A stretch of DNA of 33,508 bases from Oscillospiraceae bacterium (GTDB taxonomy: Bacteria; Bacillota; Clostridia; Oscillospirales; Oscillospiraceae). Of this stretch, positions 3,949 through 33,508 are shown one piece after another (position 1 is the stretch's first letter; each line of letters begins with the position of its first letter). A program made the position numbers and the translations under genes. The DNA lies in contig JAFVZT010000001.1 of NCBI GenBank assembly GCA_017508045.1, positions 1-33,508 of the forward strand, written 5' to 3'. The notes beneath the pieces were generated by a model. The model ran no database searches. It was not told the DNA's origin and saw only the letters and a program-made list of their open reading frames with translations.

Positions 3949-4018
3949 CAATCTGGCAATAAAAAAAGACCCAAAATAGTTAATTAAAACAATGCCAGAT
4001 GGCGTTAAAAAATTTACA

Positions 4019-4047
4019 TTTATTTTTAAATTGATTTATGGTATGAT
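4019..4047 (+). promoter_or_regulatory. Promoter of the glycosyltransferase-rubrerythrin gene
   Basis: TATGAT (4042-4047) preceded by TGG forms an extended -10 element, with a weak TTTATT (4019-4024) 17 bp upstream. It is divergent from the S-component promoter. Confidence 0.5.
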
Positions 4048-4081
4048 ATTTGAAAACACAGACAGAAAGGAAAAGGGGATT

Positions 4082-5863
4082 ATGCGCGTAGTATTGCTTT
4101 CCTGCAACACCGGAGAGGGACACAACTCCACTGCCAGAGCGATTATGGAAGTTCTGGAGCAACGGGGCGTTGAATGTGATTTGAGAGATGCACTAGCATA
4201 TTTGTCTCCCGGCGTTTCGAAGTTTATTTGCAACTGGCACGTCCGCATTTATAAGCACGCACCCAAGCTCTTTGATGTGGGCTACCGTGCCTTTGAAAGA
4301 AGTGCGGATCCGGATGAGACTGCACCTATTTATGAGGTGCTGAAGCTGGGTGCCGGTAAGGTGTGGAAAATGTTGATGATGGGCAATTATGATGCCGTAA
4401 TCTGTGTACATACGTTTTCCGGAATGCTTATGACCGAGGTGCGCAAGGTTTGGGGCGTGGAAATTCCCTGCTATTTTGTGTCTACCGATTATACCTGCCA
4501 TCCCACGTTGGAGCAGTGTGAAATGGATGGTTATTTTATTCCCACATCGGATTTGTCTTCCGAGTTCATCCGGGCAGGCATTTCCAGCCTCCACTTGATA
4601 CCATACGGAATTCCGGTTCGGCAGGCATTTTATACCGGTCAGGATAAAAAGGAAGCCAGAGAAAAATTGGGCTTGCCTGAGGATGGCCTTGTTATTTTGC
4701 TTATGAGTGGCAGTATGGGCTGTGGCCCTATTCGCAGGGTTGCCCGGGAATTGCTTGACAGATTGCCGGAGCATTGCATGGTGGTCGCTATCTGCGGCAA
4801 TAACGAAAAGCTTTACGAAACGATGTCTGAAATTGCCGGTCCCCGGCTTCAGGTGCTGGGCTACACCAAGGATGTTCCTGCTTATATGGACGCATCGGAC
4901 ATTATTGTAACCAAGCCTGGCGGATTAAGCTCCACGGAGGCTGCCAACAAGCATTTGCCGATGGTATTGATCAATACGGTAGGTGGCTGCGAAAGCAGAA
5001 ACTTTGATTATTTCCTGGAGCATCGGTATGCCGTGGGCAGCAGCGATCCGGAAATGGTAATCGCCCAAACCGTACTTTTGGCTGTGGACGAGCAGCGCAG
5101 AACCGAAATCAGGAACGCCCTTAAAGAGAATTTTACGGAAAACAGTGCGGAACTGATTGCGCAGCGTGTTATGGACTCTGCCGCCCAATATCGTCAAAGA
5201 CGCAATGGTATACATTTTGGAAGAAATGGATATCCTCTAACAGAAAAAGGAGGATACGAAATGGAACAAAATTTACAGAATCAAACGGCTATCAATTTAG
5301 CTCGAGCCTTTGCAGGAGAATCTCAGGCGCGCACCCGGTATACCGTTTATGCACAGGTTGCCCGGAAGGAAGGCTATGAGTGGATTGCCCGGGTCTTTGA
5401 GGAAACGGCAGACAATGAGGCAATCCATGCTGAGGAATTTTTGGAGCATCTGCAAAAACTGGGTGCTTGTGCGCCAAGTATTGATTTGCACGCAGGGTAT
5501 CCCTTCCAGCTGGGAACGACAGCGGAAAATCTGCAGTTTGCCGCCCAGGACGAGCTGGAGGAGCATAATGAGGTGTACCCCGGCTTTGCCGAGCTTGCCC
5601 GTCGGGAGGGACACGATGACACGGCGCGTCTTTGGCTGCAGATTGCCCGGATTGAAGGCGTACACCACAATGTATTTAAATCCTTACACGAACAGCTGGT
5701 CAGCGGCACGCTGACGGAAAAGGCTGCCCCCATTACCTGGCGCTGCTTAAATTGCGGATATACCTATGAAGGTATTCGCGCCTGTGATCCCTGTCCGGTT
5801 TGCGGCAAGGATGTCGGCTGGCAGGAGGGGGAGCTGGACAGAAAAAATATCCTTAAAAAATAA
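4082..5863 (+). CDS. Glycosyltransferase (MGDG-synthase type) fused in frame to rubrerythrin
   Basis: One open frame of 593 codons holds two enzymes. Residues 1-393 are a GT-B glycosyltransferase of the monogalactosyl/diglucosyl-diacylglycerol synthase type: CNTGEGHNSTA (8-18) is the acceptor-side motif and TKPGGLSSTEA the nucleotide-sugar motif, so it probably glycosylates membrane lipid. Residues 394-593 are a complete rubrerythrin: diiron helices with AFAGESQARTRY, ETADNEAIHAEEF and EGVHHNVF, then a rubredoxin-like CLNCGY...CPVCGK domain; it reduces peroxide in anaerobes. No stop codon separates them. The rubrerythrin ATG (5261) has a perfect internal AAAGGAGGA, so it can be made alone. 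A TAA at 5238-5240 lies one frame off, so a one-base sequencing or natural indel could have joined two genes. The start at 4082 follows AGAAAGGA; the frame opens earlier (3992), but that lacks a ribosome site. Confidence 0.85.
   Translation: MRVVLLSCNTGEGHNSTARAIMEVLEQRGVECDLRDALAYLSPGVSKFICNWHVRIYKHAPKLFDVGYRAFERSADPDETAPIYEVLKLGAGKVWKMLMMGNYDAVICVHTFSGMLMTEVRKVWGVEIPCYFVSTDYTCHPTLEQCEMDGYFIPTSDLSSEFIRAGISSLHLIPYGIPVRQAFYTGQDKKEAREKLGLPEDGLVILLMSGSMGCGPIRRVARELLDRLPEHCMVVAICGNNEKLYETMSEIAGPRLQVLGYTKDVPAYMDASDIIVTKPGGLSSTEAANKHLPMVLINTVGGCESRNFDYFLEHRYAVGSSDPEMVIAQTVLLAVDEQRRTEIRNALKENFTENSAELIAQRVMDSAAQYRQRRNGIHFGRNGYPLTEKGGYEMEQNLQNQTAINLARAFAGESQARTRYTVYAQVARKEGYEWIARVFEETADNEAIHAEEFLEHLQKLGACAPSIDLHAGYPFQLGTTAENLQFAAQDELEEHNEVYPGFAELARREGHDDTARLWLQIARIEGVHHNVFKSLHEQLVSGTLTEKAAPITWRCLNCGYTYEGIRACDPCPVCGKDVGWQEGELDRKNILKK
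5246..5254 (+). promoter_or_regulatory. Internal ribosome binding site for free rubrerythrin
   Basis: AAAGGAGGA lies 6 nt before the ATG at 5261, inside the uninterrupted frame. It is far stronger than needed by chance and implies separate initiation of rubrerythrin. Confidence 0.8.
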
Positions 5864-21951: not shown

Positions 21952-22632
21952 ATGGCTAAAACATATTCCATCGCAATTGACGGTCCTGCCGGCGCAGGCA
22001 AAAGCACCATCGCAAAGGCCTTGGCAAAGGAACTGGGGTATCATTATGTGGATACCGGTGCGATTTATCGCACGGTGGCATATTTTTTGGATCTTTTAAA
22101 TGTCAGTGTCAAGGATGTAGACGCTGTGGAGCGCTACATTGACGAGCTGACCATTCAGATTACCTATGACGAAACCGGAAAACAGCACATGCTGATGAAC
22201 GGTATGGATGTTACCGACGATATCCGCACCCAGGATATTTCCCAAAAGGCATCCCTGGTATCGGCTCATGCCGTTGTCCGTGAGGTTCTTTTGGATATGC
22301 AGCGGGATGTGGCAAAGCAGCACAATGTAATTATGGACGGCAGAGATATCGGAACAGTGGTGCTGCCTAAGGCAACGGTAAAAATTTTCCTGACCGCTTC
22401 TGCCGAGGTTCGGGCGCAGCGCCGTACCGACGAGCTGGTAGCCAAAGGGCAGAAGGCGGACTTTGCACAAACCCTCAAGGACATTCAGCAGCGCGATTAT
22501 CAGGATACCCATCGTCCCATTGCACCGCTGAAGCAGGCAAGCGATGCGGTATTGGTGGATACCTCCGATATGAATATTGAGCAGGTGCTTGCCGCAATTA
22601 AAAAGATTATTCAGGAGAAGATTCCTAAATGA
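21952..22632 (+). CDS. cmk: Cytidylate kinase
   Basis: The 226-aa kinase phosphorylates CMP and dCMP with ATP. The P-loop GPAGAGKST is at residues 10-18, YVDTGAIYRTVA (32-43) binds the nucleotide and MDGRDIGTVVLP contains the catalytic aspartate/arginine pair. The 16-nt gap after the sigma-like gene carries GAGGAA. Its stop overlaps the ispH start by 4 nt (ATGA). The order cmk-ispH-S1 is common in Clostridia. Confidence 0.96.
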   Translation: MAKTYSIAIDGPAGAGKSTIAKALAKELGYHYVDTGAIYRTVAYFLDLLNVSVKDVDAVERYIDELTIQITYDETGKQHMLMNGMDVTDDIRTQDISQKASLVSAHAVVREVLLDMQRDVAKQHNVIMDGRDIGTVVLPKATVKIFLTASAEVRAQRRTDELVAKGQKADFAQTLKDIQQRDYQDTHRPIAPLKQASDAVLVDTSDMNIEQVLAAIKKIIQEKIPK

Positions 22633-24602
22633 AGGTAACAGTTGCCAAAAGCGCCGGGTTCTGCTTCGGTGTAAATCGTGCAGTTGAGCTGGTGGAGCAG
22701 GCGGTTGGGGAAGGGAAGAAGGTATCTACCTTAGGGCCGATTATTCACAATCGCCATGCGGTAAAGCACTTTGAAGATATGTCGGTAACGGTGCTGGAAA
22801 AGCCGGAGGATGCGCAGCCGGGCAGTACGGTGATTATTCGTTCCCACGGTGTCACCCGGGATATTTATGAACAGCTTGAAAAGCAGAATGTGGAAATCAT
22901 TGATGCCACCTGTCCCTTTGTCAAGCGGATACACGGGATTGTCAGCAAGGCCCGGGAAGAGGGCAGACTGCCTGTAATTATCGGAACAAAAGCCCATCCG
23001 GAGGTGGAAGGAATTTCCGGCTGGTGCGATGCGTGTGAGATATTTGAAAGCCCGGAAGAGCTTCTGGAGTGGTCGCAAAAACCGGAAAATTCCCCGGATT
23101 TGCCAATTTGTATGGTTTGTCAGACGACATCGACAGAATTTTTGTGGAATTCGTGCGTCGAAATTGTAAAAAAACAGTTTACTAACGCAAAAATATTTGA
23201 TACAATATGTAAAGCTACTGAATCCCGACAGAGGGAGGCGGCAAATTTAAGTAAGGCCAGTCAGGCAATGGTGGTTGTAGGGGACACCCACAGCTCCAAT
23301 ACCGGTCGTCTTGCTATGATTTGCCGGGAACACTGTGAAAAGGTTGTTCTGGTGGACAATGCTTCAGAGCTGGAGCCGGAATTTTTTTACGGTGTTCATT
23401 GTGTTGGAGTCACTGCAGGCGCATCTACACCTGCGTGGATTATAAAGGAGGTCAACAAGACTATGAGCGAAATTACTAATGTTGAGGCTGTGCAGGAGGA
23501 AAGCTTTGCTGAGCTTCTCGAGCAGTCCATCAAAACTTTAAATACAGGAGATAAGGTCACCGGCATCGTTACCGGAATTGGCGCTACAGAAGTCCAGATC
23601 GATCTGGGTACTAAGCATGCCGGCTACATTCCCTATGACGAAGTCAGCAACGACCCCACCGTGAAGCCTGAAGATATCTTCAAGGTTGGCGATGAGATCG
23701 AAGTGTTCGTCGTTCGCGTGAACGATCAGGAAGGCACCTGCCAGCTGTCCAAGAAGAAGCTGGACGGCATGAAGGTTTGGGAAGACATCGGTATATGGTG
23801 TGAAGAAAAGACCACTGTTGACGGTGTCGTTACCGAAGAGAATAAGGGCGGTCTGGTTGTCAATGTTAAGGGTATCCGCGTGTTCGTTCCTGCTTCCCAG
23901 TCCGGCGTTGCCAAGGGCGGCGATATGGCCGGTATGGTGGGCAAGGCTGTTCAGCTGAAGATTACCGAGGTTAACCGCGCCCGTCGTCGTGTAATCGGCT
24001 CTATCCGCGCTGTTTCCTCTGAGACCCGTAAGGCTGCTCAGGAGCAGATTTGGAACGCAATTGAGGTCGGTGCAAAGTATCACGGTACCGTTAAGTCTCT
24101 GACTGCCTACGGCGCATTCGTGGATATCGGCGGTGTGGATGGCATGGTTCACGTTTCCGAGCTGAGCTGGAACCGCATTAAGACTCCCGCTGATGTTGTC
24201 AGTGTGGGCGACGAGATTGATGTTTATGTCATTTCCTTCGACGCAGAAAAGCGTAAGATTTCTCTGGGTTATAAGACTGCAGAGATGAACCCCTGGAATC
24301 AGTTTATGACAAACTACAGCGTGGGCGATGTTGTGGATGCTAAGATTGTTAAGCTGATGACCTTCGGCGCCTTCGCTGAGATTATGCCCGGTGTAGACGG
24401 CCTGATTCACATTTCCCAGATTGCCAACAAGCGCATTGGCAAGCCCGAGGATGTGCTGAGCGAGGGCCAGGAGGTTCAGGTTAAGATTACCCATGTGGAC
24501 GCTGAGAATAAGCGTATCTCCTTGTCTATTCGCGCATTGCTGGAAAATACCGAAAATGAGGACGAGGCCGCTGAGGCTGTAGCCGAAACTGAGGCTGAGT
24601 AA
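22629..24602 (+). CDS. ispH: IspH (HMBPP reductase) fused to ribosomal protein S1
   Basis: A single 657-codon frame. Residues 1-278 are 4-hydroxy-3-methylbut-2-enyl diphosphate reductase, the last step of the MEP isoprenoid pathway. The iron-sulfur cysteines are C12 (GFCFGVNRA), C95 (DATCPFV) and C194 (DTICKAT), with H40, H73 and H123 in place. Residues 279-657 are S1 with four OB-type repeats (about 300-625), for example GAFVDIGGVDGMVHVSELSW and GAFAEIMPGVDGLIHISQI, and an acidic tail. The fusion is known in Clostridia. At the junction, ATG 23463 has a perfect AAAGGAGGT 10 nt upstream in the same frame, so free S1 may also be made. Codon choice shifts after about 23460 towards highly expressed codons (CGT, AAG, GAG). 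Confidence 0.94.
   Translation: MKVTVAKSAGFCFGVNRAVELVEQAVGEGKKVSTLGPIIHNRHAVKHFEDMSVTVLEKPEDAQPGSTVIIRSHGVTRDIYEQLEKQNVEIIDATCPFVKRIHGIVSKAREEGRLPVIIGTKAHPEVEGISGWCDACEIFESPEELLEWSQKPENSPDLPICMVCQTTSTEFLWNSCVEIVKKQFTNAKIFDTICKATESRQREAANLSKASQAMVVVGDTHSSNTGRLAMICREHCEKVVLVDNASELEPEFFYGVHCVGVTAGASTPAWIIKEVNKTMSEITNVEAVQEESFAELLEQSIKTLNTGDKVTGIVTGIGATEVQIDLGTKHAGYIPYDEVSNDPTVKPEDIFKVGDEIEVFVVRVNDQEGTCQLSKKKLDGMKVWEDIGIWCEEKTTVDGVVTEENKGGLVVNVKGIRVFVPASQSGVAKGGDMAGMVGKAVQLKITEVNRARRRVIGSIRAVSSETRKAAQEQIWNAIEVGAKYHGTVKSLTAYGAFVDIGGVDGMVHVSELSWNRIKTPADVVSVGDEIDVYVISFDAEKRKISLGYKTAEMNPWNQFMTNYSVGDVVDAKIVKLMTFGAFAEIMPGVDGLIHISQIANKRIGKPEDVLSEGQEVQVKITHVDAENKRISLSIRALLENTENEDEAAEAVAETEAE
23444..23452 (+). 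promoter_or_regulatory. Internal ribosome binding site for free S1
   Basis: AAAGGAGGT lies 10 nt before the in-frame ATG 23463, exactly at the IspH/S1 domain boundary. Confidence 0.75.
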
Positions 24603-25236: not shown

Positions 25237-26595
25237 ATGCTGAATTTAAACGATATCTTATATACCCAGGATATGATTAACAAGCGTCACTTGGATATTC
25301 GCACCATTACCATGGGTATTTCCTTACTGGACTGTGCAGACCCGGATATTCGTGTTTGCGCCGAAAAGATTTATGATAAAATTACCCGTCGGGCAGAAAA
25401 GCTGGTGAAGGTGGGCGAGGAAATTGAGTGTGAATTTGGAATCCCCATTGTGAATAAGCGCATTTCTGTAACGCCTATGGCGCTTATCGGAAATTCCTGC
25501 AATGCTGACAGCTATGTTCCTTTGGCCGTTGCAATGGATGAAGCGGCAAAAACCTGCGGAGTAAACTTTATCGGCGGTTTTTCTGCCTTGGTGCAAAAGG
25601 GCTGCACCAGGGGTGACTGGATTTTAATGAATTCCATTCCTGAGGCTATGGCAGCCACCGAGCGTGTCTGTGCCAGTGTCAACGTCGGCTCAACCAAGGC
25701 CGGCATCAACATGGATGCTGTTGCCAAAATGGGCGAGATTATTAAGCAAACAGCCTTGCGCACGGCGGATAATGACGGTCTTGGCTGCGCCAAGCTGGTG
25801 GTATTTGCCAATGCGGTGGAGGATAACCCCTTCATGGCAGGCGCATTCCACGGCGTGGGAGAGCCAGAATGTGTGCTGAATGTAGGCGTTTCCGGCCCGG
25901 GTGTTGTTTACCATGCGCTGAAGGGCGTAAAGGGCAGACCCTTTGATGAGGTTGCCGAAACCGTTAAAAAGACCGCCTTCCAGATTACCCGAATGGGTCA
26001 GCTGGTGGGCGTGGAGGCATCTAAACGCCTGAATGTGCCCTTCGGTATTGTGGATTTAAGCCTGGCACCCACTCCTGCAGTGGGTGATAGCGTTGCCCGT
26101 ATTTTGGAAGAGATGGGCTTGGAGGTTTGTGGAACACACGGAACGACTGCCGCCCTTGCTATGCTCAACGATGCGGTGAAAAAGGGCGGTGTTATGGCCA
26201 GTAACCATGTCGGCGGTTTGTCCGGTGCGTTTATCCCTGTTTCCGAGGACGAGGGTATGATTGCTGCTGCAGAGTCAGGTGTGCTTCAGCTGGACAAGCT
26301 GGAGGCAATGACCTGTGTTTGCTCTGTGGGTCTGGATATGATTGCCGTACCGGGGGATACCTCCGCGGCGACCATTTCTGCCATTATTGCAGATGAGGCG
26401 GCAATCGGAATGGTCAACTCCAAAACAACCGCTGTGCGTATCATTCCTGCCCCCGGAAAGGTGGTTGGCGACAGAGTGGAAATGGGTGGCCTTCTGGGCA
26501 GCGCACCGGTAATGCCTGTTCATCCGGAATCGGCAGAAGCCTTTATTGCCCGGGGCGGCAGAATCCCTGCACCACTGCAAAGCTTGAAAAACTAA
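25237..26595 (+). CDS. PFL family protein (UPF0210/DUF711)
   Basis: The 452-aa cytoplasmic protein belongs to the UPF0210 (DUF711) family, structurally related to pyruvate formate-lyase but of unknown function. Hallmarks are [28 protein letters not shown]-like [27 protein letters not shown], and [21 protein letters not shown] start at ATG 25237 with TGAGG 6 nt upstream; a GTG at 25225 overlaps the ACT stop. It ends the Dabb-ACT-PFL operon, followed by a very long hairpin. Confidence 0.92.
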
Positions 26596-26613
26596 GAAAA
26601 CCCGGTTAACTAT

Positions 26614-26670
26614 TATGATATGTACCCCCAATACTGCTTGTCCAGTATTGGGGGTACATATCATATTTCC
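26614..26670. terminator. Very long perfect hairpin, probable terminator
   Basis: The arms 26614-26636 and 26643-26665 form a 23-bp perfect stem with a 6-nt loop (CTTGTC). The core ACCCCCAATACTG is GC-moderate. Only a short T-run follows on the plus strand, so it may terminate the PFL operon, the minus-strand ORF, or both. Confidence 0.6.
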
Positions 26671-26684
26671 AAACCCAGTATTTG

Positions 26685-26909
26685 TTATATTTCAGTTGCA
26701 AACAGAATTTTTCTGAAAAGCTCGGCAGTCTTTTCCCCACCAATGCCTTTCTTAAATACATCAGTAGAAGGGCCTACGTGGGTAAGCAGACCTTCCACAT
26801 AAACGGATGCCTTTTCCTGTTTTGGCTTTGCTTCGCAAGTAGGCGCATCCAAAGCAATCTGTAAATACTGGGCAAGGTAGTGTGCCGCAGTGGCATCAAA
26901 TCGCCGCAC
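26685..26909 (-). CDS. Unidentified small ORF, possible C-terminal gene remnant
   Basis: I do not recognise this 74-aa product. Codon use resembles the neighbours and the sequence looks like folded protein: an alpha-helical start (ATAAHYLAQYLQIALDA), a basic linker, then YVEGLLTHVGPSTDVF and GGEKTAELFRKILF. The only start is GTG 26909 with a weak AAGG. A short frame just upstream, ending TAA at about 26914, encodes a lysine-rich peptide, so this may be a broken larger gene. It ends next to the long hairpin at 26614-26665, which could be its terminator. Confidence 0.4.
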   Translation of the reverse strand: MRRFDATAAHYLAQYLQIALDAPTCEAKPKQEKASVYVEGLLTHVGPSTDVFKKGIGGEKTAELFRKILFATEI

Positions 26910-27133
26910 GCCTTATTTTTTGTTCTTTTCTTTGGAACGCTTGTCGTTGATGATCTTCATTTTTGCGAATGAAGTGAGCGCCGAACTTGGAGGTAATGCC
27001 GTTAAAAATCGTGATAGGGAGGCTCATAACCGTGAAGTTCACTGGGTATATCGTTCTGGGCGGTATTGGAGGAATTGCGGCAGGGAAGCAGCATAGCAAA
27101 CCTCTTGTACAGATATGAGTCAAGGGGTTAATA

Positions 27134-27694
27134 CTATTTCAAGGTCAGACCGTCGTAAAATGCCTGACCGACTTTTTCGCCCAGAACCAGATAGCTGTGA
27201 TGCACCGGGTCGAAGGTGATAGGCTGCAGCTTGGAAACATCCACTTTGCCGTTAGCGTCCAGATACGCTTCCTCCACACAGACATTGACCACCTTGCCCA
27301 CCAGATGGCAGGATTCGGGGTCATAGGAAATCATCTCGCATTCCAATGCCATAGGAAGCTCATCAATCAGGGGTGCGTCCACAAATTGGGACTTGGTGGC
27401 ATGGAAGCCTGCTTTTGCAAACTTGTCCGGCTCTTTTCTGCCGGAAACGATGCCCACATAGTCACAGGCATTTACTGTTTTGGCTGTACCCATAGACACA
27501 GTAAAAGCCTTGCGCGCCAGCACATTTTCCGCAGTCTTATGCTCTGCGTCCACACAGATGGTCAGCTGCGCCTCTTCTGTCACACCGCCCCAGGCAGCGT
27601 TCATGGCATTGGGCGTGCCGTCTTCGTTGTAAGTGCCGATAATAAACACCGGCATGGGATAACACATTTCTTTCGCGCCGAAATTCTTGCGCAT
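27134..27694 (-). CDS. Flavin reductase-like FMN-binding protein
   Basis: The 186-aa protein has the flavin reductase-like split-barrel: PMPVFIIGTYNEDGTPNAMN near the N-terminus, FTVSMGTAKTVNACDYVGIVSG in the middle and a C-terminal HHSYLVLGEKVG. Members bind FMN and pass electrons from NAD(P)H or accept them from other carriers. AGGAGG lies 7 nt before the ATG. It is monocistronic, expressed from the left-facing half of the shared promoter at 27724-27776. Possible role in oxygen or redox defence with neighbours; this is inference. Confidence 0.9.
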   Translation of the reverse strand: MRKNFGAKEMCYPMPVFIIGTYNEDGTPNAMNAAWGGVTEEAQLTICVDAEHKTAENVLARKAFTVSMGTAKTVNACDYVGIVSGRKEPDKFAKAGFHATKSQFVDAPLIDELPMALECEMISYDPESCHLVGKVVNVCVEEAYLDANGKVDVSKLQPITFDPVHHSYLVLGEKVGQAFYDGLTLK

Positions 27695-27723
27695 AATAAG
27701 TCCTCCTGCAAAATTTTGTGTTT

Positions 27724-27753
27724 ATTATACAGTAAAGCGCATGGTTGTTGCAA
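27724..27753 (-). promoter_or_regulatory. Left-facing half of shared divergent promoter A
   Basis: On the minus strand, TTGCAA (27753-27748), an 18-bp spacer and TATAAT (27729-27724). TTGCAA is its own reverse complement and also serves as the -35 box of the right-facing promoter. Confidence 0.8.
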
Positions 27754-27776
27754 GGTGTATTTTTGCGTGTTATAAT
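27748..27776 (+). promoter_or_regulatory. Right-facing half of shared divergent promoter A
   Basis: TTGCAA (27748-27753), a 17-bp spacer and TATAAT (27771-27776) drive the GNAT gene. The -35 box is physically the same six bases as that of the left-facing promoter. Confidence 0.8.
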
Positions 27777-27795
27777 GACCAAAAGAGGTGGTATG

Positions 27796-28332
27796 ATGTT
27801 AGAAACGAAAAGATTGCTTCTTCGCCCATGGCAGGTAAGCGATGCGAAGGACCTTTATGAATACGCAAGTGATCCGGCTGTGGGTCCTCCCGCGGGCTGG
27901 CCGCCCCATACCAGTGTGGAAAACAGCCGTGAATTAATCCGAAGCGTGCTTTCTGCGCCGGAAACCTATGCGGTATGTTTGAAAGACGGCAAAGCCATCG
28001 GCAGTGTGGGGCTGAAGCTGAAAGGCTATACCGATATGACTGACCGTGAGGATGAATGTGAGTTGGGCTATTGGATCGGCAAGCCGTTCTGGGGTCAGGG
28101 ATTGATCCCGGAAGCAGCCGGAGAACTGCTCCGGTATGCCTTTGAAGAATTAAATATGCGGGCTGTTTGGTGCGGTTACTATGAGGGAAATGAAAAGTCC
28201 CGCCGAGTACAGCAAAAGCTGGGCTTCATATACCAGCACACGACCCATGATTTGAATGTGTCCTTGATGAACGAGAAACGCACCGGTCACACATCCTTGC
28301 TTACCAAGGAACGCTGGGAAGAACTGAAATGA
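27796..28332 (+). CDS. GNAT family N-acetyltransferase
   Basis: The 178-aa protein is a RimJ/RimL-type GNAT that transfers acetyl from acetyl-CoA to an amine, perhaps a protein N-terminus or small molecule. ETKRLLLRPWQVSDA (3-17) is the typical opening; ELGYWIGKPFWGQGLIPEA holds the acetyl-CoA loop (GQG), and NEKSRRVQQKLGF is motif B. I prefer ATG 27796, 6 nt after AGAGGT, over ATG 27793. The gene is monocistronic and ends in a bidirectional terminator. Confidence 0.9.
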   Translation: MLETKRLLLRPWQVSDAKDLYEYASDPAVGPPAGWPPHTSVENSRELIRSVLSAPETYAVCLKDGKAIGSVGLKLKGYTDMTDREDECELGYWIGKPFWGQGLIPEAAGELLRYAFEELNMRAVWCGYYEGNEKSRRVQQKLGFIYQHTTHDLNVSLMNEKRTGHTSLLTKERWEELK

Positions 28333-28333
28333 G

Positions 28334-28366
28334 AAAACCCTGGTGTGAGCCAGGGTTTTGCTTTTT
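28334..28366. terminator. Bidirectional terminator between GNAT and XRE-SOR genes
   Basis: AAAACCCTGG pairs with CCAGGGTTTT across TGTGAG, with T-tracts on both strands. It overlaps the stop codons of both convergent genes. Confidence 0.85.
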
Positions 28367-28949
28367 AGACGTTCATCTTAAACAATCCGTGTTGGTTGCA
28401 GTAGTAATAGATATATCCTCTGCCGCGGAGCTGCAGACGGGTTTCGGCATTGCCCTCGGGATAGAACTTGACCATCTGGATTTGATCGGAGGTTATAAAC
28501 GCCACAAAGGAAATAAAATGTTCCTTGGTCATAGGGTGGGGGACAGTGATAAAATACTCGTCTTCCACTTTTTCTATGGTGATTTCGTGGGTATCGTCTG
28601 CGTTTTCCGGCTCCAGGGCAGGCAAGGTAATGCCGCAGCAGCTGACCACTGTATCACCGGTGGTATGAATTACATTTCCGCAGATGGGACAGACATAGAA
28701 TTTACACCGCAGCATATTGGCGGAAACATTTTTATTCATAATTTGCTCACCGTTCATCAGTTCAATCACACAGATGCCCAGAGCCTGCGCCAACGGCTGC
28801 AGTAAGGATATATCCGGCAGACCCTTGGCAGTCTCCCATTTGGATATTGTTTTGCTGCTGACACCGAGCTTCTCCGCTAATTCCGCCTGAGTCAGTTCCC
28901 GGCTTTCCCGCAACTTTTTGATGGTCGCTCCGGTTACGTATGTGTTCAT
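28365..28949 (-). CDS. XRE helix-turn-helix regulator fused to a superoxide reductase (desulfoferrodoxin) module
   Basis: The 194-aa protein joins two units. Residues 8-65 are an XRE/Cro-type DNA-binding domain (TQAELAEKLGVSSKTISKWE). Residues 82-192 match a two-iron superoxide reductase: desulforedoxin cysteines C87, C90, C104, C105 (CPICGN, CCG), then catalytic iron ligands H121, H138 (PHPM), H144 (EHF), C184 and H187 (YYCNQHG). The lysine that guides superoxide in Desulfovibrio enzymes (EKH) is threonine here (DTH), so turnover may be altered. It could sense superoxide, iron or oxygen and switch genes directly. ATG 28949 follows GGAAAGGA. A second XRE gene lies upstream on the same strand, separated by a hairpin. 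Confidence 0.85.
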   Translation of the reverse strand: MNTYVTGATIKKLRESRELTQAELAEKLGVSSKTISKWETAKGLPDISLLQPLAQALGICVIELMNGEQIMNKNVSANMLRCKFYVCPICGNVIHTTGDTVVSCCGITLPALEPENADDTHEITIEKVEDEYFITVPHPMTKEHFISFVAFITSDQIQMVKFYPEGNAETRLQLRGRGYIYYYCNQHGLFKMNV

Positions 28950-29019
28950 AATTCCACGTCCTTTCCGGGGCAATCATACCACAAAATTATGAAACGGACA
29001 ACCTATGCTGCGTAGACAT

Positions 29020-29054
29020 TAAGAGCCAAACTGCAGCGCGCAGTCTGGCTCTTT
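29020..29054 (-). terminator. Terminator-like hairpin between the two XRE genes
   Basis: AAGAGCCA-A-ACTGC pairs with GCAGT-C-TGGCTCTT with one mismatch. It lies 12 nt after the stop of the upstream XRE gene, though the trailing T-run on the minus strand is short. Confidence 0.6.
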
Positions 29055-29066
29055 GTCTGTATTTGT

Positions 29067-29678
29067 TTATTCCTTAGTCAGAACTTTCGTTTGCCAGGAC
29101 ATCTTGCCGCACTTGGGGCAGCGCATATATCTTGTAGTGTGCATATGCATTGCAAAAAAGACATTAACATATTTCGGAACATATTTGTGTCCGCACTCTT
29201 TACACGCATAATAGCCTGCTTTATGCTCAATTTTCAGCGCAAAGGGCGTTGCAATCAAAAGAGGGAGTAGGCTGAGCCCAACGAGCAGGCTGCCCTTCCA
29301 TTCCTCCATCGGCACAATACTTGCAATTACTGTTGCAGCGATAAGCGGAAAAACAGCGACGATGCCCATGACGATTTCCAATTTGAGCAATCTTCTGTCG
29401 GCTTCTTCTTTTTGCCTGATCATTTCAAGCAGGTTGTTTTCCATTTCTTTGTTGCAATTATCCATAGTTACTACCTCCCCGGATAAAAGATCGTTTACGG
29501 TGATACCTAACGTACTGCACAGCTCCAGCATAATGGAAGAATCGGGCAGAGATTTACCGGTCTCCCATTTGGATACGGCTCTGTCGGTGATGCCTAATTT
29601 CTCCGCCAACTGCATTTGCGTCAGATTTTCTTTTCTTCTGCATTCGGCGATAAACTTTCCGATTTTTACCTGATCCAT
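29067..29678 (-). CDS. XRE regulator with two membrane segments and a zinc ribbon
   Basis: The 203-aa protein has an N-terminal XRE DNA-binding domain (about 5-65; TQMQLAEKLGITDRAVSKWE), a short charged coiled helix (80-100), two membrane segments (about 101-122 and 130-150), and a C-terminal zinc ribbon with CKEC (C159, C162) and CPKC (C187, C190). This arrangement suggests a membrane-tethered regulator whose zinc ribbon reports on the cell surface or metal state; target unknown. ATG 29678 follows AAAGGAGG by 6 nt. It is transcribed from the left-facing half of shared promoter B. Confidence 0.82.
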   Translation of the reverse strand: MDQVKIGKFIAECRRKENLTQMQLAEKLGITDRAVSKWETGKSLPDSSIMLELCSTLGITVNDLLSGEVVTMDNCNKEMENNLLEMIRQKEEADRRLLKLEIVMGIVAVFPLIAATVIASIVPMEEWKGSLLVGLSLLPLLIATPFALKIEHKAGYYACKECGHKYVPKYVNVFFAMHMHTTRYMRCPKCGKMSWQTKVLTKE

Positions 29679-29785
29679 AGGTATCCTCCTTTCACTGTCA
29701 GTATAGCTAAGATGGGTCAAACAGTCCACGAACCGGTGGTTGAGTGGGGAGAAATCAACCAGCCGTAGGGGAATTTTGTGCCTTT

Positions 29786-29815
29786 ATTATACGATATGTG
29801 AAGCTTTTGTTGCAA
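29786..29815 (-). promoter_or_regulatory. Left-facing half of shared divergent promoter B
   Basis: On the minus strand, TTGCAA (29815-29810), an 18-bp spacer and TATAAT (29791-29786), reading towards the membrane XRE gene. It has the same geometry as promoter A. Confidence 0.78.
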
Positions 29816-29838
29816 GGGTAATTTTGGCGTGATATAAT
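29810..29838 (+). promoter_or_regulatory. Right-facing half of shared divergent promoter B
   Basis: TTGCAA (29810-29815), a 17-bp spacer and TATAAT (29833-29838), reading towards the TIGR04076 gene. It shares its -35 box with the left-facing promoter. Confidence 0.78.
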
Positions 29839-29854
29839 AACATAGGGTGAGAAA

Positions 29855-30166
29855 ATGAAGAAAGTGAAGATAACAGCTCTCCGGAGGACTTGCTATCCGG
29901 ATTTGATAGAGCAGTATGAAAATCCCATTGAACACGCCTGCGATACGCAAATCGGCATGGTTTGGGTGTCGGAAAACGGCGAAAAGCCGGAGGGGCTTTG
30001 CAACGCCGCATGGGGGAGCATGGAGTTTTTTGTCAAGACATTGGCAGAAGGCGGCGGAAACTTCTATGACGGCTGGATGAAAAATCCCCATTCGGCGATG
30101 ATCAGCTGTAACGACGGCTTTCGCCCTGTAAGCTTTTATCTGGAAACACTGGAGGATGAGAAATGA
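29855..30166 (+). CDS. TIGR04076 family protein
   Basis: The 103-aa cytoplasmic protein resembles the TIGR04076 family of small Firmicutes proteins of unknown function. It starts MKKVKITALRRTCYPDL and carries CNAAWGSM, FYDGWMKNPHSAMISCNDGFRPVSF-like segments with conserved cysteines and aromatics. The single-domain length is typical. GGGTGAG lies before the ATG. Its stop overlaps the next start by 4 nt (ATGA), so it is coupled to the methyltransferase-like gene. Confidence 0.78.
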   Translation: MKKVKITALRRTCYPDLIEQYENPIEHACDTQIGMVWVSENGEKPEGLCNAAWGSMEFFVKTLAEGGGNFYDGWMKNPHSAMISCNDGFRPVSFYLETLEDEK

Positions 30167-30828
30167 AGCTGCTGATGGAAGCTTTGACGAAGTTTACCTG
30201 TGGCCTGGTGTTGGTAGGTCTGCTGATTTTCTTGCCGGCTGGTACGATTTTTTATACATACGGCTGGCTGCTTGTTGGTCTGTTGTTTATCCCTATGCTG
30301 ATTGCCGGTTTTGTGATGCTGGCAAGATCCCCGGAGCTTCTTAAAAAGCGGTTGGATGCCAAAGAAAAGCAGGGGACACAGAAAAGCGTCGTTGCCGTTT
30401 CCGGGGTGATGTTTATTGCCGGCTTTGTGGTAGCTGGTCTGGATTACCGCTTTGGCTGGTCAAGTATGCCCATTTGGGTAATTATCACTGCCTCGGAGCT
30501 GTTTCTGTTTGCCTATGCCCTGTACGCCGAAGTGATGCGGGAAAACGCATACCTGAGCCGTACTATTAAGGTGGAAGAGGGGCAGACCGTGGTGGACACC
30601 GGTCTGTACGGCATTGTCCGTCATCCTATGTATATGGCAACGATCCTGCTGTTTCTGATGATCCCTATCGTCCTTGGCTCTTGGTACGCGCTGATTGCTT
30701 TTGCGTTTTATCCGGCAATTATCATTGTACGGTTGAAGGACGAAGAAGACTTGCTGACCCGGGAGCTTCCCGGTTATGCAGAGTATAAAAAGAAAGTAAA
30801 GTACAGAATCATTCCCTTCATTTGGTGA
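30163..30828 (+). CDS. Isoprenylcysteine carboxyl methyltransferase-like membrane protein
   Basis: The 221-aa protein has five to six membrane segments and the C-terminal signature of the ICMT/PEMT-like family: LYGIVRHPMYMATILLF (about 154-170, with the RHPxY motif) and RLKDEEDLLTRELPGYAEY near the end, which together bind S-adenosylmethionine and the substrate. Bacterial members methylate unknown lipids or small molecules. It is the second gene of an operon from shared promoter B and is translated through an ATGA overlap. Confidence 0.86.
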   Translation: MKLLMEALTKFTCGLVLVGLLIFLPAGTIFYTYGWLLVGLLFIPMLIAGFVMLARSPELLKKRLDAKEKQGTQKSVVAVSGVMFIAGFVVAGLDYRFGWSSMPIWVIITASELFLFAYALYAEVMRENAYLSRTIKVEEGQTVVDTGLYGIVRHPMYMATILLFLMIPIVLGSWYALIAFAFYPAIIIVRLKDEEDLLTRELPGYAEYKKKVKYRIIPFIW

Positions 30829-30836
30829 GGTAAATT

Positions 30837-31136
30837 ATGAGCTTTAGAATGTTTGGAATTGGCGTGACGGACGCTATTGCAGGGGAGCAGACTGAGGGCG
30901 TTGTTACCGAGGTGAAGACCTGCTGGTGGCTGAAGGTCAACACCAAGCCTGTCCGCCGTAGCGCCATTGACGGCGCGTTGTTTCCCCACATCATCCATTT
31001 TATATACAGCGTAAGCGGTCAAACCTACAAAGGAAAGCGCTATGTGAATTGGAACAAACGGTGTCCGGTGAAGGATGAAAGAATAACCGTCCATTACGAG
31101 CGGGAGAACCCGGAAAAGTATGCAGTCATCATATAA
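30837..31136 (+). CDS. Hypothetical protein, DUF3592-like
   Basis: I recognise no firm family. The 99-aa product has a beta-rich layout with TEGVVTEVKTCWWLKVNTK and IIHFIYSVSGQTYKGKRYV followed by ITVHYERENPEKYAVI, which recalls DUF3592-type extracytoplasmic beta domains, but it lacks flanking membrane helices. TGAGGT lies 7 nt before the ATG. It is the third gene of the operon, 8 nt after the methyltransferase-like gene, and ends at a terminator. Confidence 0.65.
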   Translation: MSFRMFGIGVTDAIAGEQTEGVVTEVKTCWWLKVNTKPVRRSAIDGALFPHIIHFIYSVSGQTYKGKRYVNWNKRCPVKDERITVHYERENPEKYAVII

Positions 31137-31144
31137 TAGCAGAA

Positions 31145-31180
31145 GCGGATGCCACTCAATTCTGAGGGGCATCCGCAGTT
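31145..31180 (+). terminator. Terminator of the TIGR04076 operon
   Basis: GCGGATGCC pairs with GGCATCCGC, with an inner CTCA/TGAG pairing; a moderate T-containing tract follows. Confidence 0.7.
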
Positions 31181-31202
31181 TGCTTAATTATGGTCAAACA
31201 AA

Positions 31203-31238
31203 AAATTGGACACCACATTATCGTGATGTCCAAATTTT
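31203..31238 (-). terminator. Terminator of the 73-aa protein gene
   Basis: AAATTGGACA pairs with TGTCCAAATTT, with an inner CAC/GTG pairing. On the minus strand it is followed by a T-run, 13 nt after the stop codon. Confidence 0.7.
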
Positions 31239-31251
31239 CTGCAAATTCATG

Positions 31252-31473
31252 TTATTCGGCAAAAGTATATCTTACAAAGTTACCGTGGCCGTCGCCGGTG
31301 ATGATCACGGTATCGCCATTGGTGTTTTCTGAAATGTCCATAATGGGAAATCTGCCGTTTTCTTTCACATAGGCTTCGGGGCTGTCTGCCTCGACCTCGA
31401 TCAGATCTTTCTTGGCGTATTGCTCACCGCCACAGGAATTGATGTCTTCAATAAAAACTTCGTATTCGTTCAT
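31252..31473 (-). CDS. Small acidic hypothetical protein
   Basis: I recognise no family. The 73-aa product is acidic and soluble, with IEDINSCGGEQYAKKDLIEVEADSPEAYVK (in two blocks) and a C-terminal GDTVIITGDGHGNFVRYTFAE that looks like two beta strands. TAAGGAGAT lies 6 nt before the ATG, with a good promoter and a terminator, so it is a real monocistronic gene. It is the last gene before the gene-poor edge of the mobile element. Confidence 0.7.
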   Translation of the reverse strand: MNEYEVFIEDINSCGGEQYAKKDLIEVEADSPEAYVKENGRFPIMDISENTNGDTVIITGDGHGNFVRYTFAE

Positions 31474-31506
31474 GTTGGTATCTCCTTAAATTGCAGTCAT
31501 GTCCTA

Positions 31507-31887: not shown

Positions 31888-33508
31888 TCAACAATCCTCA
31901 CATGTTGGTGTACTAAGATATTTTTTCTCAGGCGGTGGGGTTTTGTCGATCAGTTTGTAGTAGATATGAATTTCACGCGGTTCTTTGCTGTATTTGCCGG
32001 GGCATTTGTCAACCGTTACGAACTCAATCAGCTCCATACACATCTCACGGGTGAGCGTGGGAACGGTCAGATAGGTTTTCAGACGGGAAATAAACTCGTC
32101 AACGTTTGCTCGTTCCTTGGTCGTGTCAGCCTGTCGCTTTTCGATCTCGGAGCGTTCGTTTTGCAGTTTCAGCTTCTCTGCCAGATACTTCTCCAAAAGA
32201 CCGACACAAATATCCTCGGGTATCTTGCCACTGACCTTATCCTCGTAAACAGACGAGATCAGCTTATCAAGCTCTGCCGTTCTGCGAAGGATCTGACTCA
32301 TTCGCTTTCTGTCCCACATGGCTTCCTCAGTCGATACGAGATCGCACCGTTTCAGAAATGCCGCCCTCGCTTCCGCTTCGTCGGTTTCCACAAGCTGTAT
32401 CTTGGAACGAATGTCCTCCAATACGATCTGTTCCAGCGTTGCCATCTTGATGTAATGACTGCAACAGGAACGCCCTTGGAACTTTGTGTAGCTACCGCAG
32501 TTGAAGTGGTTGCGGTGGTAGGTTCTCGGATCGGTTCGCTTGTGACGGGTGTTGTTCCACCCCGAATGCATTTTCGCTCCACAGTCCGCGCAGTAGGCAA
32601 GTCCTGAAAGGGGCAGTACAACGCCCGTGCGGTTCTTCTTGCCCTGACTTACCGACGCCTCCATCTCACGGCACTTGTCCCACAGTTCTTGGCTGACAAT
32701 GGCTTCGTGGGTGTTATAGACCCATACCATATCCTCCGGATCTCGTTTCACGGTTTTCTTGTTCTTGTAGGACAGCGTAGTCGTCCGCATCTGCACAAGA
32801 TGTCCGAGATAGGTGGGGTTAGTGAGGATCTGCTTGACTGTTGAACAAGACCAAAGATGATGGGATCTTCTCGTGTTGGGGATCCCGAACTTTTCTTCCT
32901 TGTAATCGGCAGGCGTTTTGATACCTTCTTCGTTCAAGGCATCCGCGATCTTGTTGGGACTGATGCCCTTTGCACGCATTTCGAACATCCGAAGCACGTA
33001 GCTCGCTGCAGGTTCGTCACGAATGGGAAGCCTGTTTTCGTCGTTCCCTTTAACGTAGCCGTAGGGTGCGGCATTTGCCCGATACTTTCCCGATTTGGCG
33101 TTTGTTTCGATGACGGCGCGAATCTTTTTACTGGTGCTTGCCGCGTGCCATTCGTTAAACACATTCATAATCGGCATCATATCCATACCGGCATTTTCGG
33201 TGTTTGCCGAATCCACGTTATCACCGAGAGCGATAAAACGGATGTTGTGCATAGGAAAAATATAATCGGTGTACTGTCCCACCTCAATATAGTTTCTCCC
33301 GAAGCGGCTGAGATCCTTGACGATAATGACGTTGATCCTGCCGGTCTTGGCATCCTCAAGCAGCCGCTTTACCTCCGGTCTGTTGAAGCTGGTGCCGCTC
33401 CATCCGTCGTCGATATACTCGTCGATCACGGTAAAGCCCTGTTCGGCAGAGAACTTACGAAGCATAAGCTTTTGGTTCTCGATGGACAAAGACTCACCGG
33501 CACGTTCA
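31888..33508 (-). CDS. Large serine recombinase (5' end beyond window)
   Basis: At least 540 codons of a large serine integrase of the type found on clostridial conjugative or mobilisable elements (TndX/TnpX-like). The visible part begins ERAGESLSIENQ and continues with the resolvase core (YIDDGWSGTSFNRPEVKRLL, VIIVKDLSRFGRN), a recombinase domain, a zinc ribbon with CADCG and later cysteines, and a coiled-coil region (about the last 150 residues). The frame stays open to the window edge, so the N-terminus with the catalytic serine is not seen. It would excise and insert the element by site-specific exchange. The stop is TGA at 31888-31890. Confidence 0.92.
   Translation of the reverse strand, partial: ERAGESLSIENQKLMLRKFSAEQGFTVIDEYIDDGWSGTSFNRPEVKRLLEDAKTGRINVIIVKDLSRFGRNYIEVGQYTDYIFPMHNIRFIALGDNVDSANTENAGMDMMPIMNVFNEWHAASTSKKIRAVIETNAKSGKYRANAAPYGYVKGNDENRLPIRDEPAASYVLRMFEMRAKGISPNKIADALNEEGIKTPADYKEEKFGIPNTRRSHHLWSCSTVKQILTNPTYLGHLVQMRTTTLSYKNKKTVKRDPEDMVWVYNTHEAIVSQELWDKCREMEASVSQGKKNRTGVVLPLSGLAYCADCGAKMHSGWNNTRHKRTDPRTYHRNHFNCGSYTKFQGRSCCSHYIKMATLEQIVLEDIRSKIQLVETDEAEARAAFLKRCDLVSTEEAMWDRKRMSQILRRTAELDKLISSVYEDKVSGKIPEDICVGLLEKYLAEKLKLQNERSEIEKRQADTTKERANVDEFISRLKTYLTVPTLTREMCMELIEFVTVDKCPGKYSKEPREIHIYYKLIDKTPPPEKKYLSTPTCEDC

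Follow-up and report, generated by a model that had tools for sequence, protein, structure and literature searches.

An XRE-family regulator with a superoxide reductase-derived metal module, a conserved site at its own promoter, and a possible shift from catalysis to sensing

What does a superoxide reductase (SOR) module do when it is carried by a DNA-binding protein? We investigated this question for a short gene in a 33,508-nucleotide stretch of DNA from an Oscillospiraceae bacterium (the whole stretch analyzed, hereafter the window), which an earlier note had described as an XRE helix-turn-helix (HTH) joined to what looks like a complete two-iron desulfoferrodoxin. Computed here are the domain make-up, the single clade of such fusions, the loss of the Glu-Lys-His (EKH) catalytic motif, a conserved site at the gene's own promoter, and the small number of such sites elsewhere. 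On balance, we think that the protein would be an XRE transcription factor that regulates its own gene, and that its SOR-derived metal domain would have exchanged catalysis for sensing.

Both domains of the one short gene scored above the curated Pfam cut-offs (Table 1): HTH_3 (8.5e-15; 55 bits vs. a cut-off of 23) and Desulfoferrodox (residues 135–192, 1.3e-7). Furthermore, the NCBIfam desulfoferrodoxin model TIGR00320 matched residues 82–192 (7.7e-12), and the top PDB match was the desulfoferrodoxin 1dfx (residues 83–191, 1.4e-9). The nine ligand residues that had been named, four cysteines of the desulforedoxin (Dx) site and five residues of SOR centre II, all stand at the positions given for them and align with the nine ligand positions of two-iron SORs (TIGR00320; 1dfx, 2ji1, 2ji2, 2ji3), and the protein reads D-T-H at the position of the catalytic motif, so that threonine (T120) does replace the lysine. 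From desulfoferrodoxin the fusion differs in the added HTH, the lost EKH, the spacing of its Cys site (CX2CX13CC vs. CX2CX15CC in standalone proteins), the invariant K/R142 and Y163-P164-E165, and a score far below the TIGR00320 equivalog cut-off (45.5 vs. 146.9 bits). Frame 1 of the plus strand over the same interval is interrupted by stops. The module was found again in other genomes (identity up to 86%), and dN was below dS in all seven of the seven ortholog pairs examined (0.09–0.18 vs. 1.0–2.4); given this recurrence and dN/dS, the fusion is, by sequence comparison, far above chance. At the level of sequence, there is support for describing the protein as a regulator that binds DNA and carries a two-metal module derived from SOR.

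Table 1 Coordinates of the fusion gene, its domains, and the flanking signals in the window
Feature	Position	Strand	Remarks
HTH-Dx-SOR fusion gene	28949..28365	minus	194 aa, ATG start at 28949
XRE helix-turn-helix, residues 10–59	28773..28922	minus	Pfam HTH_3, 8.5e-15
Desulforedoxin-like Cys site, residues 87–105	28635..28691	minus	C87, C90, C104, C105; CX2CX13CC
SOR centre II ligands, residues 121–187	28389..28589	minus	H121, H138, H144, C184, H187
T120 codon, where the EKH catalytic lysine would stand	28590..28592	minus	
Operator-like conserved block, GTCTACGCAGCATAGGTTG	28999..29017	minus	palindrome within at 29003–29015; conserved in relatives
Promoter	28973..29001	minus	−35 TTGTCC 29001–28996, 17 bp, −10 TATGAT 28978–28973, TG before −10; consensus match; spacing kept in relatives
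Shine-Dalgarno-like, GGAAAGGA	28959..28966	minus	putative, read from the sequence
Terminator-like hairpin	28334..28359		between the fusion gene and a convergent GNAT gene

The HTH-Dx-SOR architecture is not new, having been known since 2011, when SORGOdb placed 19 of its 325 proteins in this class (BMC Microbiol 2011; PMC3116461). As the accessible text of that article describes the class, the window protein shares with it the domain order HTH, desulforedoxin, SOR, with the HTH at the N terminus and SOR active centre II found both by ligands and by Pfam Desulfoferrodox, and has all four Dx cysteines, with a spacing of X13 where the motif given for the class is CXXCX15CC; the same text gives no function, site, or EKH loss for the class. 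No HTH fusion was found in the accessible text on Clostridioides difficile Sor (PMC11980386). TrtA of Treponema denticola, an oxygen-induced XRE protein, was considered as a relative and rejected, being of 104 aa with no SOR similarity named in the text available (PMC12724145). In the open-access literature (subscription papers lay mostly outside the search), we found no functional study of an HTH-Dx-SOR fusion addressing target, signal, or mechanism. New here are the single fusion clade, the EKH loss, the repeated replacement of H121 and H187, the palindrome at the gene's own promoter, and the nearly private nature of that site.

SoxR has a MerR fold with [2Fe-2S] and PerR a Fur fold, and both are metal-based oxidative-stress regulators, as the fusion is proposed to be. 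Neither fold was recognized in the fusion protein: a MerR match fell below the Pfam cut-off (0.011, 15.9 vs. 28.2 bits), and the Fur family was absent among the 25 of 31 family matches listed. The fusion resembles XRE repressors and activators such as P22 c2 and the 434 repressor in its HTH fold, as judged by sequence, and in a palindromic site at its own promoter, and differs from them by the SOR-derived C-terminal module.

Relatives were collected by domain search, which returned a match in 58 of 99 relatives, 58 loci in the genome contigs collection, and a match in 174 of 398 genomes of the phylum; 30 of the phylum matches (the window's own included) had E values no higher than 2.6e-26, as is typical of the fusions. 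We gathered 146 distinct ORFs from the loci and regions fetched, and split them by bit score to the window's domain, not by HTH, into 103 fusion-clade and 43 standalone ORFs, the latter being a part of all canonical matches; one more canonical match, a long frame in G446, carries EKH but lacks an HTH. Two gappy or rearranged ORFs (L154 and L082) were left out of the residue counts and tree, leaving 101 fusions, and the upstream count of 93 leaves out 10 of the 103 that had no assigned start. The split agrees with architecture, the HTH core being found in 93 of 101 fusion-clade ORFs vs. 0 of 43 standalone ORFs, and HTH_3 in all 39 aligned fusion members (Pfam). The eight ORFs without the core are one at a contig edge (L011), five cut at one codon (L020, L072, L079, L026, and L156), and two in which no HTH was seen (L068 and L139). 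Most named hosts in the contigs collection are MAGs from gut or rumen assigned to Oscillospiraceae or to other Clostridia; the same collection also gave Collinsella tanakaei, Neobacillus rhizophilus, and a MAG named as Treponema. Domain relatives were also observed in a fecal phage record (MT835563.1, 21715–22059; 61.7% identity), where the gene is unannotated, and in a Monoglobus pectinilyticus plasmid record (NZ_OY725727.1, 48429–48764; 33.9%), where it is annotated only as a helix-turn-helix protein.

In a maximum-likelihood tree built by a quick method from the Dx-SOR region, with several weak inner branches, the 101 fusions form a single clade (SH-aLRT 99) with the standalone L086 as its sister (support 96). 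L086 (5001–5360) has neither the HTH nor the EKH lysine, with HPMTKEH and YPE already there, and is a possible intermediate between standalone and fused proteins.

EKH is found in 0 of 101 fusion-clade proteins vs. 41 of 43 standalone proteins, and lysine at residue 120 in 0 vs. 42, respectively. The fusions carry Glu (26), Ala (19), Asp (18), Ser (13), Thr (7), or others at this position, which is acidic in 44. The minimum number of changes on the tree is one for K120, two for C105, five for H121, and eleven for H187; the lysine, by this reconstruction, disappeared a single time, no later than the base of the clade, as L086 is without it too. In contrast to the lysine, the metal-binding positions are by alignment largely kept, with some altered. 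All nine ligands are present in 71 of 101 fusions vs. 42 of 43 standalone proteins, the four Dx cysteines in 95 vs. all 43, and the five centre II ligands in 73 vs. 42 (66 of 75 fusions with HTH type A, 5 of 20 with type B, and 6 fusions untyped). Within these sets, the first three Dx cysteines are found in all 101 fusions and the fourth in 95, with His in the remaining six; H138 and H144 in all 101 and C184 in 100; H121 in 82; and H187 in 85, with Asp (10), Cys (3), or Glu (1) in others, so that 187 is a possible ligand in 99. The alignment indicates that H121 and H187 are replaced repeatedly, with H138, H144, C184, and the Cys site nearly invariant. K/R142 and Y163-P164-E165 are invariant among the fusions and variable among the standalone proteins. 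A "complete two-iron desulfoferrodoxin" is an apt description of the ligand set of the window protein and not of the family: because all nine ligands occur in only 71 of 101 members, selection does not preserve an intact SOR centre across the whole family.

Such a pattern bears on whether the domain might be metal-responsive or merely structural, its Cys and His/Cys sites holding zinc or iron for dimer stability or to report the supply of metal, with no oxygen species sensed. That the Cys site is the best-kept part, and that H121 is lost in 19 fusions, would fit this reading, as would the fusion of N. rhizophilus (L080), in which H121, the axial Cys, and H187 are replaced and the four Dx cysteines and two centre II histidines are kept. 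It is further consistent with the XRE protein encoded next to the fusion (29067–29729), which ends in CxxC...CxxC with weak zinc-ribbon matches. However, of all metal domains it is an SOR fold that is attached here, with positions 138, 144, 184, and mostly 187 kept and a possible ligand at 187 in nearly every member, and we regard a purely metal-responsive or structural role as unlikely.

The earlier note had proposed promoters at 27750 and 29812 as targets of the regulator; the conserved site was found instead at 28999–29017, before the fusion gene itself, and a three-mismatch operator match at 29726–29742 is at chance level. The palindrome CTACG-N3-CGTAG, followed by the TTG of the −35, precedes the fusion's own start in most relatives: CTCTACGNNGCGTAGGTTG is present with up to four mismatches in 79 of 93 upstream regions and with up to five in 81, compared with 0.08 and 0.8%, respectively, in mononucleotide shuffles of the same regions, and before none of the 43 standalone genes (best match, six mismatches). 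The −10 is best placed 17 bp from the −35 (the 3′ end of the motif being its TTG) in 77 of 81, a spacing partly chosen because the best of spacings 15–19 was taken. With the −10 hexamer as −12 to −7, the center of the palindrome lies near −43. A dyad fixed relative to the promoter across genera is, on this sequence evidence, what an autoregulated XRE dimer would need. Among the 12 regions without the operator, L134 carries the site ahead of the reductase gene that precedes the fusion, in L136 it stands 154 bp from the start, L005 is cut by a contig edge, and L025, L073, L084, and L085 are without explanation; the other five (L151, L153, L155, L157, and L158) have the same upstream gene in common and may be transcribed with it.

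By its flanks, the fusion gene looks monocistronic. Promoter-like sites in the region number 8 vs. 2.5 expected, and the terminator-like hairpin is weak by itself, since one was found vs. 1.9 expected in shuffles. The upstream XRE gene (minus strand) ends 117 bp ahead of the fusion gene; its product has a hydrophobic stretch, and its zinc-ribbon matches are below cut-off. Rfam gave no match in window positions 26500–31500, and no neighbor was conserved among the ORFs called by a simple ORF caller (the largest group downstream held 3 of 100 ORFs, and that upstream 5 of 95).

The site is nearly private to the fusion. In 81 genus genomes, TCTACGNWNCRYAGGTTG occurs at 24 sites in 23 genomes, with none in the reversed control, and 20 of the 24 precede a gene carrying both the HTH and the Dx motif. 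The remaining four are L165 (nothing clear), L187 in G057 (before another XRE protein), L183 in G005, and L185 in G032. In the last two, the operator-promoter was observed before a chloramphenicol-acetyltransferase (CAT)-like gene, with leaders of ∼340 and ∼240 bases; the Pfam support for this gene comes from L183 only, and one reading of the L185 frame is shorter. With two mismatches, 39 fusion-bearing genomes have 33 sites in 29 genomes vs. 15 sites in the reversed control. By coordinates, 27 of the 33 precede the fusion, a split half of one, or (in G344) the first gene of the operon; the other six are in G018 (before a MerR-type gene), G096 (C2), G101 (C17), and G456, and at the CAT-like genes of G005 and G032. 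Since the control reaches 15, lone additional sites, for instance in G018 and G456, carry little weight, and distant weak targets are beyond judgment. In the window genome (76% complete), the only one-mismatch site is at the fusion gene itself, and at up to two mismatches there are 6 sites vs. 10 in the reversed control; one of these, C31:28386, was set aside as chance. A wide regulon is for now unsupported, the two-mismatch sites of the window genome being fewer than in the control and exact sites elsewhere few.

We also observed that several genomes have the fusion gene interrupted at one shared point among the HTH codons, near SKW-E: L107/L218 (G094), L079 (Beduini massiliensis), L156 (G367), L020/L049 (G032), and L072, with left halves in L207 (G032) and L217 (G005). 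At the junction, L079, L026/L107, and L156 show the tail of a serine recombinase gene, and for L020 and L072 the comparison covered 41 bases of junction sequence, which are similar. In G094 the halves are ∼10.4 kb apart (1252088 and 1241676), separated by a large serine recombinase (Resolvase, Recombinase, DUF4368) and a Mob_Pre gene. It seems that an integrative mobilizable element targets the HTH codons, with a putative shared core of about GGGA. The window itself has a large serine recombinase with DUF4368 at 31888–33489 (minus), so a mobile element may sit at its edge. Elsewhere in the window, a single 623-aa frame (3992–5863, plus) encodes both an MGDG-synthase-like glycosyltransferase and a rubrerythrin whose end resembles rubredoxin, apparently either by fusion or by a lost stop, and a LytB/IspH protein is fused with S1 RNA-binding domains (22629–24602, plus).

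A nearly private operator is also what one might see if the protein were a trigger enzyme, a slow but real superoxide reductase whose attached HTH governs how much of it is made, and the window protein has all nine ligands. There was no canonical SOR match in 18 of 23 same-genus fusion genomes, many of which are incomplete; no association between fusion and canonical SOR was seen among 61 same-genus genomes including G000 (fusion in 23, canonical in 18, one of these a broken partial, and both in 5). Moreover, a gene for a flavodoxin-like reductase, a possible electron donor, adjoins the fusion in G344, with the operator before the reductase, and lies within 22 bp downstream in L143 and in the rearranged copy L154 (the Pfam FMN_red check covered the G344 and L066 proteins only). 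We nevertheless consider this improbable, as EKH is wholly absent from the fusions, nearly half of them are acidic at the lysine position, H121 and, in L080, the axial Cys can be lost, and Lys48 hydrogen-bonds the peroxo intermediate in the SOR of Desulfoarculus baarsii, according to the accessible text of PMC2824530 and a reference title within SORGOdb (PMC3116461).

We have proposed that the sensory half of this XRE-family regulator is an SOR module shifted from catalysis to sensing, and the family-wide loss of the lysine and the conserved site at the gene's own promoter favor sensing over catalysis. A dimer would bind CTACG-N3-CGTAG just upstream of, and touching, its own −35. A change at either metal site (oxidation or ligand binding at the Cys site or the His/Cys site) would then change how the regulator binds DNA or touches RNA polymerase, thereby resetting its own expression. 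Among these steps, autoregulation is well supported by sequence; we infer that the sites hold metal, what the signal is, whether regulation is positive or negative, and that the fusion protein binds at the site. The center of the palindrome, near −43, is close to where the lambda repressor sits when it activates PRM, so we lean toward activation; the position would equally allow repression, with the −35 covered by the protein.

A redox role is, in our view, the likeliest reason for an SOR fold to be kept on a DNA-binding domain, and the EKH loss fits a site that responds and persists with no turnover. Tentatively, the SOR fold may have been captured as a DNA-bound sensor of oxygen species, in which loss of the lysine would give a long-lived oxidized or peroxo iron state, read out by the HTH through activation of its own promoter from a lambda PRM-like position; we put forward this fuller version as possible and rather doubtful. 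Superoxide is one candidate for the signal, alongside O2, H2O2, NO, and a metal. Against a pure sensor, by alignment, is that most members, the window protein included, retain all nine ligands, as an enzyme would. It would also be unusual for a stress sensor to control scarcely anything beyond its own gene, and no conserved oxidative-stress neighbor was found.

The EKH loss across the clade argues that annotating these fusions as superoxide reductases would mislead. For the HTH-Dx-SOR class, the conserved operator is a concrete DNA target and points to autoregulation. Because relatives carry the conserved site before the same gene, the idea of a direct oxygen-stress sensor is now testable on a defined promoter. 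If it is true, gut anaerobes would have a direct sensor of superoxide or O2 separate from SoxR, OxyR, and PerR, and, if the redox step holds, this would be a new route by which strict anaerobes sense superoxide or oxygen directly.
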